A stretch of 23,183 nt of DNA. Origin: a virus. Under the pieces are notes generated by a model. It was given only the letters and a program-made list of their open reading frames with translations. It did not search any database and was not told where the DNA came from. The stretch lies in the IMG/VR virus record IMGVR_UViG_3300034407_001878, positions 1 to 23,183 of that record; one strand, written 5' to 3'. Position numbers and translations under genes: made by a program. This document shows, one piece after another, positions 3,334-18,792 of this stretch; positions within the stretch are counted from its first letter, which is position 1; each line of letters begins with the position of its first letter.

Positions 3334-4290
3334 ATGCCATCACCAACAACATCAGATGTACATGTAGACGCAGTATTGACAAATATGTCGATTGCATACA
3401 TGCAGGACCAAGACCACTTCGTAGCCGGTAAAGTCTTTCCGACAGTACCAGTTCAGAAACAAAGTGATCTTTATTACACATACACACAAGCAGACTTCTT
3501 CCGAGATGCCGTTGAATTACGAGCAGACGGAACAGAGTCAGCAGGAACCGGATACGGTCTTAGCACTGACAGCTACAGCGCACTCGTATATGCCCTCCAT
3601 AAAGATATTGGAGATCAAGTTCGAGCTAACAGCGATGCACCTTTGTCACCAGACCAAGACGCAACCCGATTCCTTACACAGCAAATGCTACTTCGTCAAG
3701 AAATTGACTGGGCTAGCAAATACTTTGGAACATCAATCTGGGGAACCGATAGCACACCATCTACCCTATGGAGTGCGGCATCAGGTTCTGACCCAATAGG
3801 TAATGTTCAAACAGGAATAAATACTGTACTAACCAACACAGGTTACAAGCCAAACGTGATGGTTATGTCTTACGCAGTATTTAGTATTCTCAAAAATCAT
3901 GCTGACATCGTTGACCGATACAAGTACACATCTTCATCATCAATCACAGAAGACCTTTTGGCTTCCGTTCTTGGTGTTGAACGAGTGCTTGTCATGGGTG
4001 GAATCAAAAATAGTGCGGCTGAAGGCGCAAGCGCATCATACGCACAAATTGGCGATAAAGATGCTCTGCTAGCCTACGTTGCACCAAACGCTGGAATCAT
4101 GGCACCATCCGCTGGTTATAATTTCTCATGGACAGGGCTAGCCCAATCCGGTGGGATAGGAACTAACACAGCAATCAGTAGATTCAGAATGGATTCATTG
4201 CGAGCAGATAGGATAGAAATCGAATCCGCATGGAGCTACAAAGTAGTTTCAAGTGCACTCGGTTATTTCTTCTCTAACTGCGTAAGCTGA
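3334..4290 (+). CDS. Major capsid protein
   Basis: The 318-residue protein has the length and gene position of an HK97-fold major capsid subunit without a long N-terminal delta domain. That fits with the separate scaffold gene two positions upstream. Recognisable capsid features are an N-terminal segment with FVAGKVFPTVPV, a helical stretch LTQQMLLRQEIDWASKYF, and P-N-V-M-V-M-S near the centre. These resemble gpE-type/HK97-like coat proteins of actinophages. Its ribosome site is GAGGAG. A strong terminator hairpin follows 15 nt after the stop, so capsid transcript is likely made in excess over the connector genes. I am confident of the role and less so of the exact capsid subfamily. Confidence 0.88.
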   Translation: MPSPTTSDVHVDAVLTNMSIAYMQDQDHFVAGKVFPTVPVQKQSDLYYTYTQADFFRDAVELRADGTESAGTGYGLSTDSYSALVYALHKDIGDQVRANSDAPLSPDQDATRFLTQQMLLRQEIDWASKYFGTSIWGTDSTPSTLWSAASGSDPIGNVQTGINTVLTNTGYKPNVMVMSYAVFSILKNHADIVDRYKYTSSSSITEDLLASVLGVERVLVMGGIKNSAAEGASASYAQIGDKDALLAYVAPNAGIMAPSAGYNFSWTGLAQSGGIGTNTAISRFRMDSLRADRIEIESAWSYKVVSSALGYFFSNCVS

Positions 4291-5634: not shown

Positions 5635-6035
5635 GTATGCTAACCGATGTCGGCACATATCTAGCGGCGGCTTCGATTAGCACGCAAGATTTAACACTCG
5701 GCACTAATTTATTTCTAGGTCGTTTACCTGATTCACCCGATACTTGTGTTGGTTTAGTTCAAACCGCTGGCGTTGCACCAACGGATACATTCGGTACAAG
5801 TTTTCCTCCGGTTGAGACACAGGGTCTACAAGTTCTATCGAGGGCTGGCGCCTATGTCACGGCTGAAGCATTGGGTGTCGATATCTTCAAAAGCCTCACC
5901 GCTGTGGATAACCAAACATTAACTAGCACGCTGTACCTTAAAATTGAGGCTACGCAGTCACCGTTCGCCCTTGAAAGAGACACACAAGAAAGAGTGGTTA
6001 TTGCGTGCAACTATCTGATAGTCAAAGCGGTATAG
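5631..6035 (+). CDS. Putative tail terminator / minor capsid-like protein
   Basis: This 134-residue protein begins MSMLTDVGTYLAAASISTQD and continues with N-L-F-L-G-R-L-P-D-S-P-D and GLQVLSRAGAYVTAE. The arrangement of an N-terminal helix, 'G.LPd.PD' and 'glqv.vRg..y..A' matches tail terminator/minor capsid proteins that follow gp10-like genes. These form the ring that ends tail polymerisation. The start overlaps the preceding stop as ATGA. The last 31 nt overlap the GTG start of the zinc-ribbon gene in another frame. The assignment rests on motif recall and conserved gene order. Confidence 0.72.
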   Translation: MSMLTDVGTYLAAASISTQDLTLGTNLFLGRLPDSPDTCVGLVQTAGVAPTDTFGTSFPPVETQGLQVLSRAGAYVTAEALGVDIFKSLTAVDNQTLTSTLYLKIEATQSPFALERDTQERVVIACNYLIVKAV

Positions 6036-8870: not shown

Positions 8871-8905
8871 TTGAAAACAGCATATTTCTGCCCTATTCTT
8901 TACAT
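8871..8905 (+). promoter_or_regulatory. Late-type leaderless promoter for lysis operon
   Basis: TTGAAA (8871-8876), a 17-bp spacer and TATTCT (8894-8899) are followed by 6 nt and an in-frame GTG at 8906. It supports GTG as the endolysin start, at the predicted +1. It lies back-to-back with early promoter copy 3. Confidence 0.75.
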
Positions 8906-9661
8906 GTGGATAACCTTCCTACAACTAGCAAGCGTGTGCGTGTAGATTTACTGCACCCAACATTCAAGGCACGCCTATCGGCTTTACTGAATAACGAACC
9001 GACAATACAAGGGCGAGCCAAGATAGTTTCCGGTGTGCGTTCTTTCGCCGACCAGTTATATTTCTGGAACGGCTACCAAAATAAACTCAAAGGTAAAGCA
9101 GGGTATGGGCATTTTAATTTAGCGGCGAACCCTCATCGTAAATTTGGCGGTGGTTCTTTTCAAGGGTCATGGCATATGCAACAACCATTCGATAATTATG
9201 GGCACGCTGTTGATATTCGACTATCAGGTGGCTTGACTTGGGCGAAGTTTGTGCCAATCGCAAAAGAATACGGTGTCTGTCAAACAGTTTTCCGACCTCA
9301 ATACGAACCGTGGCACTATCAGTGGCGAAACAGCAACGGTATCTTTCAAGCACCAGCAATGAAAGGCGAAAAGACCGAAACCAAAACAGCGAAGAAACAA
9401 AAGGTTGATCTCAAGGGAGTGGCGGCGGCGCTTGCAACATTAGGTGAGCAAGTAGCCAGAAGACCGTTGCGTAGGGGTAGCCGTAGTTCAGCAGTAAAGG
9501 TTATACAAGAACGACTAGCATCGAAAGGTTATAAGTGCGGATACCCCGATGGTATCTTCGGTAGAAAAACCGACAGAGCGGTGCGAACATATCAACGAGC
9601 CAATGGTTTAGTTGTTGATGGCATTGTAGGGCGTAACACTTGGAACCGTTTACTTAAATAG
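8906..9661 (+). CDS. Endolysin: M15 (VanY-like) peptidase plus peptidoglycan-binding domain
   Basis: The 251-residue protein has an N-terminal zinc peptidase of the M15 D,D-carboxypeptidase/L-alanoyl-D-glutamate type. SGVRSFADQLYFWNGY (about 42-57), NYGHAVDIR (His100, Asp103) and EPWHYQW (His137) give the three zinc ligands. A Lys-rich linker (about 153-170) leads to a PG_binding_1 repeat at 187-250 (SSAVKVIQERLASKGY ... DGIFGRKTDRAV). The enzyme should cleave cross-linking peptides of the host wall. There is no signal peptide, so it needs a holin, and an r1t-like one follows 8 nt downstream. I set the start at GTG 8906, the predicted +1. Longer in-frame starts would run back through the divergent promoter, and the nearby ATG at 8904 is out of frame. 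Confidence 0.88.
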   Translation: MDNLPTTSKRVRVDLLHPTFKARLSALLNNEPTIQGRAKIVSGVRSFADQLYFWNGYQNKLKGKAGYGHFNLAANPHRKFGGGSFQGSWHMQQPFDNYGHAVDIRLSGGLTWAKFVPIAKEYGVCQTVFRPQYEPWHYQWRNSNGIFQAPAMKGEKTETKTAKKQKVDLKGVAAALATLGEQVARRPLRRGSRSSAVKVIQERLASKGYKCGYPDGIFGRKTDRAVRTYQRANGLVVDGIVGRNTWNRLLK

Positions 9662-9668
9662 GAGCAGA

Positions 9669-9944
9669 ATGAGATTAAACAAAGAACAGTTCATGGATAT
9701 TGTTGAAAGGGCTTTGTTCACATATGTGCAAACCTTTCTCGGCTTGTTGAGTGCGTCTGGTTTAGGCGTAGACATGGGTGGGTTATCAACGTTGAAGATG
9801 GCGGCACTCGGTGGATTACCAGCGGCTATATCCGTAATCAAAGGGGCGCTATGTACTCTTGCACCAATCGGTGATGAGACAGCATCCGTAATACGACAGA
9901 AACAACCATTGCCCGAAGACGGCGATGAACTCTTGTACGAATAG
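9669..9944 (+). CDS. r1t-like holin
   Basis: The 91-residue product has two hydrophobic segments, about residues 12-34 (VERALFTYVQTFLGLLSASG) and 42-68 (LSTLKMAALGGLPAAISVIK), and an acidic C-terminal tail. The 'ERA..TF.Q...' start and 'a...a..Aal.a..s.lK' second helix match small r1t-type holins common in actinophages. It follows the endolysin by 8 nt with the ribosome site AGGAG, forming an endolysin-holin pair. It should open the membrane to release the endolysin. The short acidic tail (PLPEDGDELLYE) is in the usual place for a cytoplasmic regulatory tail. Confidence 0.8.
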   Translation: MRLNKEQFMDIVERALFTYVQTFLGLLSASGLGVDMGGLSTLKMAALGGLPAAISVIKGALCTLAPIGDETASVIRQKQPLPEDGDELLYE

Positions 9945-9952
9945 GAGAAGAA

Positions 9953-10264
9953 ATGCCAAACACGAATTTATCAAGAACAAATAACGCTGATGCCAAAGGC
10001 GTTCGAGAATTACAAACAGCATTGAATGAACACGGTGCAAGTTTATATGTTGATGGCAGATTTGCGAGGGGAACCGATCTAGCATTGGCGAAGTTTCAAA
10101 ACGACAATGGGTTAGACGTTACCGGCGTAGCTGATGAAGCAACATGGGCGAAGTTACAGCCTAAGAAAAAAGCACCAGCGAAAAAGAAAACCACAGCGAA
10201 GAAAGCCCCAGCAAAAAAAGCCCCAGCAAAGAAGGCTTCCCCAAAATCGAAAACCAAAAAGTAA
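9953..10264 (+). CDS. Peptidoglycan-binding protein with Lys/Ala-rich tail
   Basis: Residues 14-70 form one PG_binding_1 unit (GVRELQTALNEHG ... VDGRFARGTDLALAKFQNDN), related to the endolysin C-terminus. Residues 71-103 are almost only Lys, Ala, Pro, Thr and Ser (repeats of KKAPA), like histone H1 or HupB tails. No catalytic domain or signal peptide is present. It follows the holin with the ribosome site AGGAG. The basic tail may bind nucleic acid or anionic wall polymers. The zero frame contains C CCA AAA (10240-10246), a classical -1 slippery heptamer, and the -1 frame continues without a stop through the WhiB domain. This ORF may therefore be the short product of a frameshifted gene. Confidence 0.8.
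   Translation: MPNTNLSRTNNADAKGVRELQTALNEHGASLYVDGRFARGTDLALAKFQNDNGLDVTGVADEATWAKLQPKKKAPAKKKTTAKKAPAKKAPAKKASPKSKTKK
10240..10246 (+). promoter_or_regulatory. Candidate -1 ribosomal frameshift site
   Basis: In the frame of the peptidoglycan-binding gene the bases read C CCA AAA, fitting the X XXY YYZ rule. After slippage the reading frame is open from here to the WhiB stop at 10479. A small hairpin (GGCA/TGCC) follows about 31 nt downstream, longer than the usual spacing, so a stimulator is not clear. Confidence 0.45.
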
Positions 10265-10479
10265 TTCTCAAGGACTGGCATTTACTTGCCGCTTGTCGTG
10301 GGTTGCCTACTGAATGGTTTTATCCGATCAACAAAAATAAGGCTGAGATACGCAAAGCTGTTCAAGTTTGTAACCGTTGCGTGGTTCGTCTTGATTGTTT
10401 GAATACTGCAATAGAGAACGGTGAAGAATGGGGGGTATGGGGGGGACTTTCCCCCACCATACGGTTGAAGAACTTTTAG
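10264..10479 (+). CDS. whiB: WhiB-family Fe-S transcription factor without a standard start codon
   Basis: The frame encodes DWHLLAACRG, then VQVCNRCVVRLDC and EEWGVWGGLSPT. Counting from the ATT at 10264, four cysteines at 11, 36, 39 and 45 (C-x24-C-x2-C-x5-C) and a G-V-W-G-G turn at 57-61 identify WhiB, an actinobacterial family that binds a 4Fe-4S cluster and sigma factor. Between the upstream in-frame stop (10162-10164) and the first cysteine there is no ATG, GTG or TTG. Either ATT at 10264, overlapping the previous TAA, is used, or -1 frameshifting in the previous gene produces a fusion. The listed start is the ATT. An assembly error in the A-rich tail is a third possibility. Phage WhiB proteins can interfere with host WhiB function and septation. 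Confidence 0.85.
   Translation: MLKDWHLLAACRGLPTEWFYPINKNKAEIRKAVQVCNRCVVRLDCLNTAIENGEEWGVWGGLSPTIRLKNF
10435..10462. terminator. Stem-loop inside the end of whiB at a convergent junction
   Basis: GTATGGGGGGG pairs with CCCCC and CCATAC with one bulged A and a 5-nt loop. It is the only strong hairpin at the convergent junction of 10479 (+) and 10481 (-), where other junctions have terminators. U-tracts are poor: only CTTTT some 10 nt later on the plus strand. It overlaps the codons of the WhiB G-V-W-G-G turn, so coding constraint may explain part of it. Confidence 0.4.
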
Positions 10480-10480
10480 G

Positions 10481-10942
10481 TTATAGTTCTCCTGCTTTTT
10501 TTAGAATCACTCGTAGGTCTTGTTCTTTGCGAAGATTAGGACCAAACTCGGTGCTCCATTTGTGTAGCGTACTCATTGGCGCTGGGTTTCTTCTTGCGTA
10601 GGAGCTACGTTCACGGTATTTCCAAATGTAATCGTTGAGTGATTCTTCCCTTCTGTGGTTCTCAATTTCTCTGGCTCTTGTTTTCTGTTCTGCTGTGAGT
10701 TTTACTTCCCACCAAGGTACGAAGGTTCTTTCCCTTTCTTCGTATGCTTCGGCTCTTGTAATGTGGTAAGTATCCCAGAAGATGTTTGCTGGTGTTCCTT
10801 TTTGGCTTCGTTCTGGTGATCCTCCGCTGAAGGTGATTCCGGTTTCTTGCTCAAGTTCTAATGCTCTGTCTTGAACTTCATCCGTTGAGGCGAAGGCTCT
10901 CCCTAATCTTTTTGCTTCTTTGATTATTTCTTGTGTGTTCAT
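10481..10942 (-). CDS. Hypothetical early phage protein, charged helical
   Basis: No family was recognised. The 153-residue protein is helical and rich in Glu, Arg and Lys, with a central W-W-E-V-K-L-T-A-E-Q motif and many Arg-Glu pairs (ENHRREESLNDYIWKYRERS). No membrane segment or Cys cluster is present. The ATG at 10942 follows ACGAAAGGA; an in-frame ATG at 10972 on the predicted +1 would add MEQKLTKGKS. It is a single-gene early unit whose stop lies 1 nt from the whiB stop on the opposite strand. Its promoter faces the small-RNA locus rather than a plus-strand gene. Confidence 0.75.
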   Translation of the reverse strand: MNTQEIIKEAKRLGRAFASTDEVQDRALELEQETGITFSGGSPERSQKGTPANIFWDTYHITRAEAYEERERTFVPWWEVKLTAEQKTRAREIENHRREESLNDYIWKYRERSSYARRNPAPMSTLHKWSTEFGPNLRKEQDLRVILKKAGEL

Positions 10943-11018
10943 GGATTTTCCTTTCGTTAGTTTTTGTTCCATAGGTTCACCATAACTGGATTATTTCAGA
11001 AAGTAAACATTATCTTAC
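10943..11018 (-). promoter_or_regulatory. Early promoter and leader copy 4
   Basis: The -35 TTTACT is at 11007-11002, with a 17-bp spacer and -10 TATGGT at 10984-10979. After 6 nt the 30-nt leader begins ATGGAACAAA at 10972, in frame, with ACGAAAGGA. The dyad is at 11003-11018. The upstream transcript terminates 26 nt away at 11044. Confidence 0.85.
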
Positions 11019-13173: not shown

Positions 13174-14613
13174 ATGTCTGCTACCCCCTTGTTTGTTTTC
13201 AGTAGAGCCATGTTGGCTGTGCTACTTATCGTGGCGTGGTTAGCTCCTGCGAGGGCGCAAGCAACGACTTGTGAGACAACAGAAACAGGTTGGGACTGTT
13301 CGATAAATATCACCACATACGGTGAAGGACCACGCTTTACATTCACTATCACAGAAGACCAAACAGTAGTCGAGATAGTTACTTATACAAGTTTGACTTG
13401 TGACGACCATGCCACAGGGCAAAACACTGACACTTATGCGGCTGACCCATACCTAAAACTATATGATGACGGTGAGACACTTCTGTTTGAAGATGACGAC
13501 AGCGCCTCACATAACGATGGCACAAATCTATGTTGGGACTCATACCTTAATGTGACCTTAGACAGTGGCGACTATGAACTGTATGCAACAGCCTATGATG
13601 CGGACACCATTGGGGCGTACACGCTTGAAGTATCAGGTGGTGAATGGGATATGGAAGAAGAAGAACCAGAACCCACCCCGACTCCTACACCAGAACCGGA
13701 ACCAACTCCTGAACCGACACCCGAACCTGATCCCAGTCCAACTCCGACTCCAGAGCCGACACCCAATCCAACTCCTGCGCCAACGCCTCAGCCAACACCA
13801 GATGAAGATCCAGAACCAGAGGAACCACCACAACCCGTTCAGCCACCAGAACCTGCACCAACGCCAGAACCTTCACCTCAACCTACTCCGACACCAGTAC
13901 CGCCACCGACTTTTGAATTTGATTTTGACTTTGACATTGATGACATCCTAATCCCAGATGGTGATGTTACAGACGATGACCTTATTTTTATTCTGCCAGA
14001 TGACTTTGACTTTGACGAATTAGAAATTGATGAACTGTTTATTGACGACTTAGAAGGGAACAATGATGAAGAAGATATTGACGAATTACCAGAGATTGAA
14101 GATTTCGAAGATGAGGAAGAAGAACCAACTGATAATAATGAAGAACCATTTGATGAAGAAGAACCAGAAGAAATAGAGCCGGAAGAACCGGACCCAGATT
14201 TGGAAGATTTAGGAATACAAGAATTGATTGAAGATGATGAACAGTTACAAGAACTGATTGAAGAATTAGAAACCGAAGATGTATTGGAAGAAATACTTGA
14301 GGACAATACAGACTTCTTCGAAGAAGCAGAAGACGAGGAATTAGAACAGATATTTGAAAAAGCGCCAGAGATATTCAATGAGGCACCAAAGGAAGTCAAA
14401 GAAGAATTTGAAGCAGAGGTTAATGTGTTTAGTGGTGCATTTGATGATTACGAAGCAGAAGGGCAGAACGTTACCGTTGGTGAACGGCGAACAATCGTGG
14501 CGGCAACAGCAGTAGTTAGTGCAGTTGCTATTCAAGCACGACCGACACCAACGCAGATTATGAGCGGACCGAGTAGCGGTCCATCAACAGGAACAGTACG
14601 CAGAAGGAGGTGA
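13174..14613 (+). CDS. Large secreted protein: PPC-like domain, Pro/Thr/Glu repeats, acidic tail
   Basis: The 479-residue product begins with a clear Sec signal peptide (hydrophobic [13 protein letters not shown], cleavage likely after ARA, residue 28). Residues 30-150 contain Cys pairs and a beta-sandwich with [19 protein letters not shown] and [11 protein letters not shown], like bacterial pre-peptidase C-terminal (PPC) domains. Residues 155-245 are a Pro-rich linker of PTPEP-type repeats. Residues 246-420 are extremely rich in Asp and Glu. Near the end, [18 protein letters not shown] is a hydrophobic stretch, followed by a basic RRRR. It heads a late-type operon with small membrane proteins and a nuclease. 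It may act at the cell surface, in lysis or in superinfection exclusion; this is inference. Repeat-driven length variation is likely. Confidence 0.75.
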
Positions 14614-14800: not shown

Positions 14801-15059
14801 AACCGCATCCACTATTATGACGGTCATTGGCAGGATATTCGCAACGTTCGTTTATCAAGCGATGGCTGTCATAGGTGGGGCGTCAATTATTGGCGGTATA
14901 GATACAACCAAGGCGGCGTTACTTTCTGGGATTACTGCTGTCGCTACTGTGTTGCAAAAGCTGGCGGCGGCGTATGCTGACGATGGTAAAATAACATTAG
15001 AGGAATTGGATGCGGCGTTCAGAATGAACTCTGCTCCTTCATCAAAGGAAACAGAATGA
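14793..15059 (+). CDS. Holin-like small membrane protein
   Basis: I chose the ATG at 14793, which overlaps the end of the preceding gene by 8 nt; the frame also extends to a TTG at 14766. The 88-residue product contains the segments TVIGRIFATFVYQAMAVIGG and AALLSGITAVATVLQKLAAA, followed by DDGKITLEELDAAF. The first two resemble r1t-like holins, with the 'TkaallSgitAv.tvlq' second helix. The last has the D-x-G-x-I-x-x-x-E pattern of an EF-hand-type calcium loop, but a single loop in a phage protein is weak evidence. The context is a possible second lysis cassette or membrane-effector operon. Confidence 0.68.
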   Translation: MNKTASTIMTVIGRIFATFVYQAMAVIGGASIIGGIDTTKAALLSGITAVATVLQKLAAAYADDGKITLEELDAAFRMNSAPSSKETE

Positions 15060-15421
15060 GCAAAAATAATTTATACCATTACCGAGCGGAACTTGACCGT
15101 GTTGTTGATGGAGATACAATCGATGTAGTTCTTGATCTCGGCTTTGACTTACATCTGAAAGCACGCATTAGGTTTGTTGGGATTAATGCACCGGAATCGA
15201 GAACAAGGGATTTGGTTGAGAAGCAGAAAGGTCTTGAAGCAAAAAGGTTTGTTGAAGATTGGTTAGGTAACTGTGACACTATTATTGTGCAAACACAGTT
15301 GGATAAGAAAGGTAAATTTGGGCGCATACTCGGCAACATTCTAAACGCTGATGGCGCTTGCTTAAATGACGAAATGGTTTCCTTGGGTCACGCTACTCCC
15401 TACGATGGGGGTAAACGTTAA
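15056..15421 (+). CDS. Staphylococcal nuclease-like (thermonuclease) protein
   Basis: The 121-residue protein has the SNase core: DRVVDGDTIDV (residues 14-24), ARIRFVGINAPES (36-48) and KFGRILGNI (87-95). Arg39, Glu47 and Arg90 correspond to the catalytic Arg35, Glu43 and Arg87 of staphylococcal nuclease. The calcium ligand Asp40 is replaced by Asn44, as is seen in other phage and bacterial members. There is no signal peptide, so it acts in the cytoplasm, plausibly on host DNA or RNA. The start overlaps the upstream stop (ATGA) with AAAGGA ahead of it. It is the last gene before a bidirectional terminator. Degrading host nucleic acid late in infection is inferred. Confidence 0.85.
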   Translation: MSKNNLYHYRAELDRVVDGDTIDVVLDLGFDLHLKARIRFVGINAPESRTRDLVEKQKGLEAKRFVEDWLGNCDTIIVQTQLDKKGKFGRILGNILNADGACLNDEMVSLGHATPYDGGKR

Positions 15422-17880: not shown

Positions 17881-18199
17881 AGGCGCTCCGTATCAGTCCT
17901 AGTTTCATTGCTTCAGCCACATTGTCGTGAACCCAACGGTGACACATTCTGCAGATAGCTACACTGTTCGCCCTATCGAGTATTGAACCACCTTGTGACC
18001 GTAGATGCGGTTCATGTATTTCTGTTGAGTATCTTGTGCAGACGTTCGGTATTTTTGCTTCACACCATTTTCGGTTCTCTAGTTCTTCTTTGACGAACGT
18101 TCGGCGCTGTCGTTGTGTTCTCGCTCTGCGTTTGCTAATTGGGGCTAGTGACCCTGTTCTCTTTAATGGTGTGTTTCGTTTAAGCGGTGTCCGTTTCAT
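17867..18199 (-). CDS. HNH endonuclease-like protein
   Basis: The 110-residue protein has a basic N-terminus (MKRTPLKRNTPLKRTG), then WCEAKIPNVC (Cys46, Cys54), EIHEPHLRSQGG (His62), NSVAICRMCHRWVH (Cys83, Cys86, His87, His91). These give a treble-clef HNH with zinc-binding cysteines and the central His. The start is the ATG at 18199, overlapping the upstream stop as ATGA; an ATG at 18220 would add seven residues and lies inside that gene. In phages such proteins act in packaging with the terminase or as recombination nucleases. Here it sits with a RusA-like resolvase, pointing to DNA recombination or processing. Confidence 0.83.
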   Translation of the reverse strand: MKRTPLKRNTPLKRTGSLAPISKRRARTQRQRRTFVKEELENRKWCEAKIPNVCTRYSTEIHEPHLRSQGGSILDRANSVAICRMCHRWVHDNVAEAMKLGLIRSAYGTE

Positions 18200-18792
18200 T
18201 GGCACACCCAATGTTTCCAACCACCAGCAACGTGTTCATACAGTAACCAAGCTGAAGTATTAATATTTGCTATAGGGTCGAATGGGCTAGCGCCATCATG
18301 ACCTGCCATCTTTGCTCGCCACGGAAAGTAATTGTTAAGGTGTTGCATGAGTCCTGATGCTCCGCTTGCTTGATTGTAAGCATCTGGGTCACCACCACTT
18401 TCACACTTCATCACCCGAAGAAACTTCGGTATATCTGTCGCTGGTCCACCATAACGTGCTATTGCTGTTATTACTTCTGGTCGCCATCGTTCAACGTCTG
18501 GTCCGAAGTCACGATCAGGCACCGTATATTCGTGTATCGGTACTGTTATGTTCAGTTCCATTGCTCGCTGTCTGTGTGCTCGATTAGTGTTCGGTCCGTA
18601 AATGCTGTCACGTTCTTCTCCAAGCCAGTACTGCAACCAGTTCACAGCCGATGAGTTCTCATACAGTTCGTATTCGTAACTGTATGTCCATTCTTCTACT
18701 GCTTCCCAATCAATTGCTGGCATCAACATCGCTGATGCGGTTCCTGTCATCAAGAACCAAAAGATTATTGTTGTGGTAATTCTTCGACCCAT
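18196..18792 (-). CDS. Secreted lytic transglycosylase-like protein
   Basis: The 198-residue protein begins with a signal peptide (MGRRITTTIIFWFLMTGTAS, cleavage near Ala21). Residues 58-83 resemble a phage lysin wall-binding motif (DSIYGPNTNRAHRQRAMELN). Residues 104-195 form an SLT-like domain with the catalytic Glu in MKCESGGDP (Glu131), followed by QASGASGLMQH and a C-terminal AWLLYEHVAGG. The E-S-G-G, G-x-x-G-L-M-Q pattern is that of soluble lytic transglycosylases. It overlaps the replication-type HTH gene by 28 nt in an early operon, unlike the lysis genes on the plus strand. It may remodel wall peptidoglycan early, or contribute to lysis when exported. Confidence 0.82.
   Translation of the reverse strand: MGRRITTTIIFWFLMTGTASAMLMPAIDWEAVEEWTYSYEYELYENSSAVNWLQYWLGEERDSIYGPNTNRAHRQRAMELNITVPIHEYTVPDRDFGPDVERWRPEVITAIARYGGPATDIPKFLRVMKCESGGDPDAYNQASGASGLMQHLNNYFPWRAKMAGHDGASPFDPIANINTSAWLLYEHVAGGWKHWVCQ

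Follow-up and report, generated by a model that had tools for sequence, protein, structure and literature searches.

The locus lies in the lysis region of a 23,183-nucleotide viral DNA (IMG/VR record IMGVR_UViG_3300034407_001878), the whole of which is referred to here as the window. An endolysin gene, whose exact start is uncertain, opens this region on the plus strand at 8894–9661 (PHROG endolysin, 3e-26; Pfam PG_binding_1 at the C-terminus), and a holin gene follows on the same strand at 9669–9944 (PHROG holin, 3.2e-10; a weak Pfam r1t holin match is under its cut-off). The next plus-strand gene (9953–10264) encodes a 103-aa protein that consists of a peptidoglycan-binding-type domain (PGBD; PF01471, 1.2e-14) and a Lys/Ala-rich tail of PAKK repeats, and its stop codon, TAA, occupies 10262–10264. 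The end of this gene overlaps a second open frame on the same strand, displaced by -1, which encodes a WhiB domain (about 10276–10464). The gene after WhiB, at 10481–10972, is on the opposite strand; hence the rightward gene row ends with WhiB. In three other phages (L026, L028, and L031), PGBD-Lys/Ala genes without WhiB sit immediately 5′ of a holin-like gene, and the PGBD-Lys/Ala gene is therefore a recurring lysis-region gene.

The assignment to the WhiB family is based on four cysteines, the G[V/I]WGG motif (GVWGG in the window), and profile matches in both Pfam and PHROG; the Pfam match (PF02467, 4e-18) is well past its cut-off, and the domain also matches the solved WhiB1, WhiB3, and WhiB7. 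The initial annotation described the WhiB frame as open from 10165 to 10479 with no ATG, GTG, or TTG before the codon for the first cysteine (10294), and both statements were confirmed. The openness of the frame 5′ of about 10237 carries little weight, because the Lys/Ala tail is nearly T-free and hardly any stop is possible there.

Relatives were sought by eight scans of IMG/VR, and all of the sequences are metagenomic. Ten distinct lineages share a layout in which WhiB, in the -1 frame, follows a PGBD-Lys/Ala gene: window/L001, L035/L036, L037/L038, L039+L148 (the two overlapping ends of a single contig, counted as one lineage), L040, L024/L041, L042, L048, L049, and L153. L048, L049, L148, and L153 were recovered by later scans, at a time when the first cases were known, and all fit the pattern; this includes L153 from the last scan, for which the pattern was already known beforehand. 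The WhiB identity between lineages is 40–71% for the pairs compared, and in 10/10 lineages the second ORF is in the -1 frame and overlaps the end of the first. ATG, GTG, TTG, and CTG are absent between the slip site (see below) and the first cysteine in all ten, while L024, L035, L037, and L048 have zero start-like codons of any sort in this interval. The WhiB frames of L035 and L040 do have ATG or TTG codons, but these are 5′ of the slip site, within the PGBD gene. Hence, a normal whiB start was found in none of the PGBD-linked relatives when homologous loci were compared, as the initial annotation had proposed to do.

Among the 86 distinct WhiB sequences in the loci found, 72 have an ordinary start codon no more than 35 codons away from the first cysteine, and a Lys/Ala-rich ORF precedes none of these 72. 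The other 14 comprise 12 PGBD-linked sequences, a contig-end fragment (L188), and the WhiB of an unrelated phage (L009), which appears to use ATT. In L009, TAATT overlaps the stop of the previous gene (4004–4030), and this arrangement could be due to initiation at AUU or to an error of one base. As to the host of this phage family, an actinobacterium is likely, since phages of freshwater actinobacteria commonly carry WhiB (PMC10202952, PMC6802176).

The initial annotation pointed to C CCA AAA at 10240–10246 of the plus strand as a potential slip site. This heptamer is indeed in frame 0 of the PGBD ORF, and a -1 slip on it enters the WhiB frame, which then runs through a linker and the WhiB domain to a TAG stop (10246–10479). 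A canonical X_XXY_YYZ heptamer is present in every one of the ten lineages in the usable stretch, which extends from the last stop of the -1 frame to the stop of frame 0. It is C_CCA_AAA in four (window, L039/L148, L040, and L049), G_GGA_AAA in five (L024, L035, L037, L048, and L153), and A_AAA_AAA in one (L042). The distance from the heptamer to the frame-0 stop is 2–6 codons, except for 23 codons in L040, where the tail is longer 3′ of the site; in L039, a productive slip is confined to about 10 codons. The heptamer covaries with the silent wobble base that precedes it (TCC or GCC with CCA, TCG or GCG with GGA), and both main kinds of heptamer are found in each of the PGBD subgroups, PNxNLSRTNN and xPPLSxTNN. 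To pass from one kind to the other takes several base changes, including the silent one, and for this reason the slipperiness itself looks to be under selection.

How much weight the heptamer can bear depends on its context. When the codons of the A-rich tails are simply shuffled, a heptamer of one sort or another often arises, and significance was not reached in this test; the presence of a heptamer alone, which is expected by chance in such a tail, is thus no proof, and the evidence resides in its position, type, and conservation. A comparison of how tripeptides are encoded was used in place of the shuffle. At other places in these loci, comparable tripeptides are encoded by a heptamer in 0/32 cases, with 1.4% expected per site, whereas at the slip site all are. 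Moreover, the heptamer is absent in 5/5 PGBD-type controls without WhiB (L025, L026, L028, L031, and L054), of which L026 and L054 have less similar tails; the lineages are related, and Fisher tests therefore overstate the significance.

Between diverged lineages, the pN/pS of the WhiB frame is 0.25–0.5 with a saturated pS of 0.83–0.99. Purifying selection on this frame is thus strong, and the frame is therefore translated. Because silent sites are saturated, the conservation of the slip site is all the more telling.

Collectively, the relation between the two frames, conservation of the slip site, the absent start codons, and the purifying selection on the WhiB frame make it very probable that WhiB lacks its own start and that its synthesis depends on programmed -1 ribosomal frameshifting at the 3′ end of the PGBD-Lys/Ala gene. 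The initial annotation had offered this frameshift and an AUU start as alternatives. Conservation of the slip site in 10 lineages strongly supports the former, while the latter gains no support, the ATT being seen only in the window and L001. With an AUU start, ribosomes would reinitiate after the PGBD gene at the ATT in the WhiB frame (10264–10266, plus strand), which overlaps the TAA, and produce a free 71-aa WhiB. The codon is placed 10 codons ahead of the first cysteine, which is the usual distance, TAATT is like the stop-start overlap TAATG, and the unrelated L009 has TAATT where its relatives have TTG or ATG. However, nine other lineages are missing the AUU, four of them (L024, L035, L037, and L048) have nothing start-like where it would act, it has no good Shine-Dalgarno sequence before it, and it leaves both the conserved slip site and the open -1 frame from this site to WhiB unexplained. 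The lineages without a start-like codon rule out AUU initiation as the general mechanism, and we regard it as improbable for the window too; it may contribute some free WhiB in the lineage to which the window belongs.

An RNA polymerase that slips on the A-runs of the tail would give some mRNAs of altered length in which the two frames are fused. The tails are A-rich, with A7 at 10213–10219 in the window and A7 at the site itself in L042; however, at the position of the window's A7, L001 has A6 only, and the conserved site mostly has just AAAA (L024, L035, L037, L048, and L153). A run of four is too short for the usual polymerase slippage, and the absence of a long A-run at most sites disfavors this explanation to the point of making it very improbable. 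The chance that a sequencing error or a decayed WhiB gene accounts for the arrangement is negligible. A-rich stretches are in principle prone to single-base errors, and the initial annotation had raised a missing base in the tail that would restore one frame. No such base was found in L001 or in the nine more diverged lineages, and the -1 relation is kept. L001, a separate IMG/VR record with 96% identity, matches the window base for base from 10214 to 10284; together with the nine further lineages, which come from many separate metagenome records, it refutes a read error. Further 5′ in the Lys/Ala tail, L001 and the window have two differences that are silent in frame 0 and alter the reading of the WhiB frame, as expected if just frame 0 is translated there. 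Decay is countered by the purifying selection and by the WhiB cysteines, which are intact.

In the proposed frameshift mechanism, the majority of ribosomes would end at the TAA and release the 103-aa PGBD-Lys/Ala protein, while a minority would slip back one base on C_CCA_AAA and go on in the WhiB frame to give a 175-aa PGBD-Lys/Ala-WhiB fusion. What might stimulate the slip is less uniform. A stem-loop is predicted downstream of the site in some lineages, among them the window (10251–10320, plus strand; -19.2 kcal/mol, z -2.1), L042 (z -3.3), and L035 (z -2.8), but not in others; z ranges from -3.3 to +0.6, and no consistent downstream RNA structure was found across the lineages. Directly 5′ of the slip site, the window has the weak Shine-Dalgarno-like AAAGAAGG (10228–10235, plus strand), a possible stimulator, and about half of the lineages carry AAGAAGG at this place. 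The ribosome may also be slowed by the positive charge of the nascent chain.

WhiB proteins are ligands of a [4Fe-4S] cluster; several of those from mycobacteria associate with the principal sigma factor, and WhiB7 alone has a recognized DNA-binding motif (PMC6282962). By analogy with the cellular proteins, the WhiB part of the fusion would bind such a cluster and dock on the principal sigma factor of the host. The window WhiB stops ten residues past GVWGG and has no long basic tail; therefore, the Lys/Ala arm may supply the DNA affinity that the short C-terminus is missing. The arm of L049 resembles the histone H1-like HC2, below the Pfam cut-off. The fusion is probably a WhiB regulator of low abundance whose Lys/Ala arm binds DNA and whose synthesis accompanies that of the lysis genes, and late in infection frameshifting would hold the regulator at a fixed low level relative to the lysis-region protein. 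It is also possible that cleavage inside the Lys/Ala linker frees WhiB. For the phage family as a whole, we tentatively suggest, at somewhat less than even confidence, that a frameshift-made transcription factor extends a lysis-region protein at a fixed ratio and that the DNA-tethered WhiB reshapes late host or phage transcription.

The nearest parallel is gpG/gpGT of phage lambda, with the slip site G_GGA_AAG: this is likewise a dsDNA tailed phage with the same heptamer type near the end of the first gene, a startless second gene, and a low-level C-terminal extension as the expected product (PMC5009743, PMC7618472). Since gpG and gpGT are produced at 30:1 (PMC5009743), a slippage rate of a few per cent would be plausible here. 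The lambda proteins are tail-assembly chaperones, whereas the frameshift predicted here joins a lysis-region PGBD protein to WhiB. The identity of a G/GT tail-assembly chaperone was rejected for the present locus, as the domains are PGBD and WhiB and lie beside endolysin and holin. Phage WhiB-like regulators, such as the mycobacteriophage WhiBs and TM4 WhiB, share the four cysteines, G[V/I]WGG, and the Pfam and PHROG matches; in the other loci surveyed, WhiB has its own start (72/86 distinct sequences) instead of a predicted frameshift junction to PGBD-Lys/Ala. WhiB7/WblC with its AT-hook combines a WhiB domain with a basic DNA-binding arm (PMC6282962), to which the Lys/Ala tail would be the counterpart, although the arm here is N-terminal, of the PAKK-repeat type, and supplied by another gene through the putative frameshift. 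Standalone PGBD-Lys/Ala proteins (L025, L026, L028, and L031) have the same order of PGBD and PAKK-type tail, some of them beside a holin-like gene, but their loci have neither a downstream WhiB nor a slip site.

The initial annotation held that a frameshift-made WhiB fusion was undescribed, and none was found in the literature searched, which consisted largely of sources other than subscription journals; the search for CCCAAAA or GGGAAAA together with frameshifting also gave nothing. In the sections consulted of two reviews, frameshifting in dsDNA tailed phages is described for tail-assembly chaperones (PMC5009743, PMC7618472). Among the matches listed from 50,697 described phage records, there are only partial WhiB or PGBD matches, none of which covers 80% of the query in one place, and the matches from cellular genomes are remote and confined to the PGBD. 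If the proposal is true, a conserved family of uncultured phages employs this device for a gene regulator, and the reason for linking a lysis-region domain to WhiB becomes a testable question. Gene callers that need a start codon would miss such a WhiB. Because WhiB is used as a marker to recognize actinobacterial phages in metagenomes (PMC6802176), startless WhiB genes could be overlooked there.

Elsewhere in the window, eight leftward genes on the minus strand (starts at 2152, 6584, 8800, 10972, 13068, 15794, 17236, and 21432) have a common repeated leader of roughly 90–100 bases, AAATATGTAAGATAATGTTTACTTTCTGAAA... ATGGAACAAA...AACGAAAGGA...ATG. This leader looks like a repeated promoter or operator plus a ribosome-binding site, and translation of these genes probably begins at the second ATG. 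Positions 13174–14613 encode a 479-aa protein that has a signal-peptide-like start and low-complexity stretches rich in Pro, Glu, and Thr; it has zero Pfam or PHROG matches and a counterpart at 5942–7573 of L024. A staphylococcal-nuclease-like protein (PF00565, 2.7e-8) is encoded on the plus strand at 15056–15421, and the minus strand at 18196–18792 encodes an SLT transglycosylase (PF01464, 2.2e-10) whose start resembles a signal peptide.
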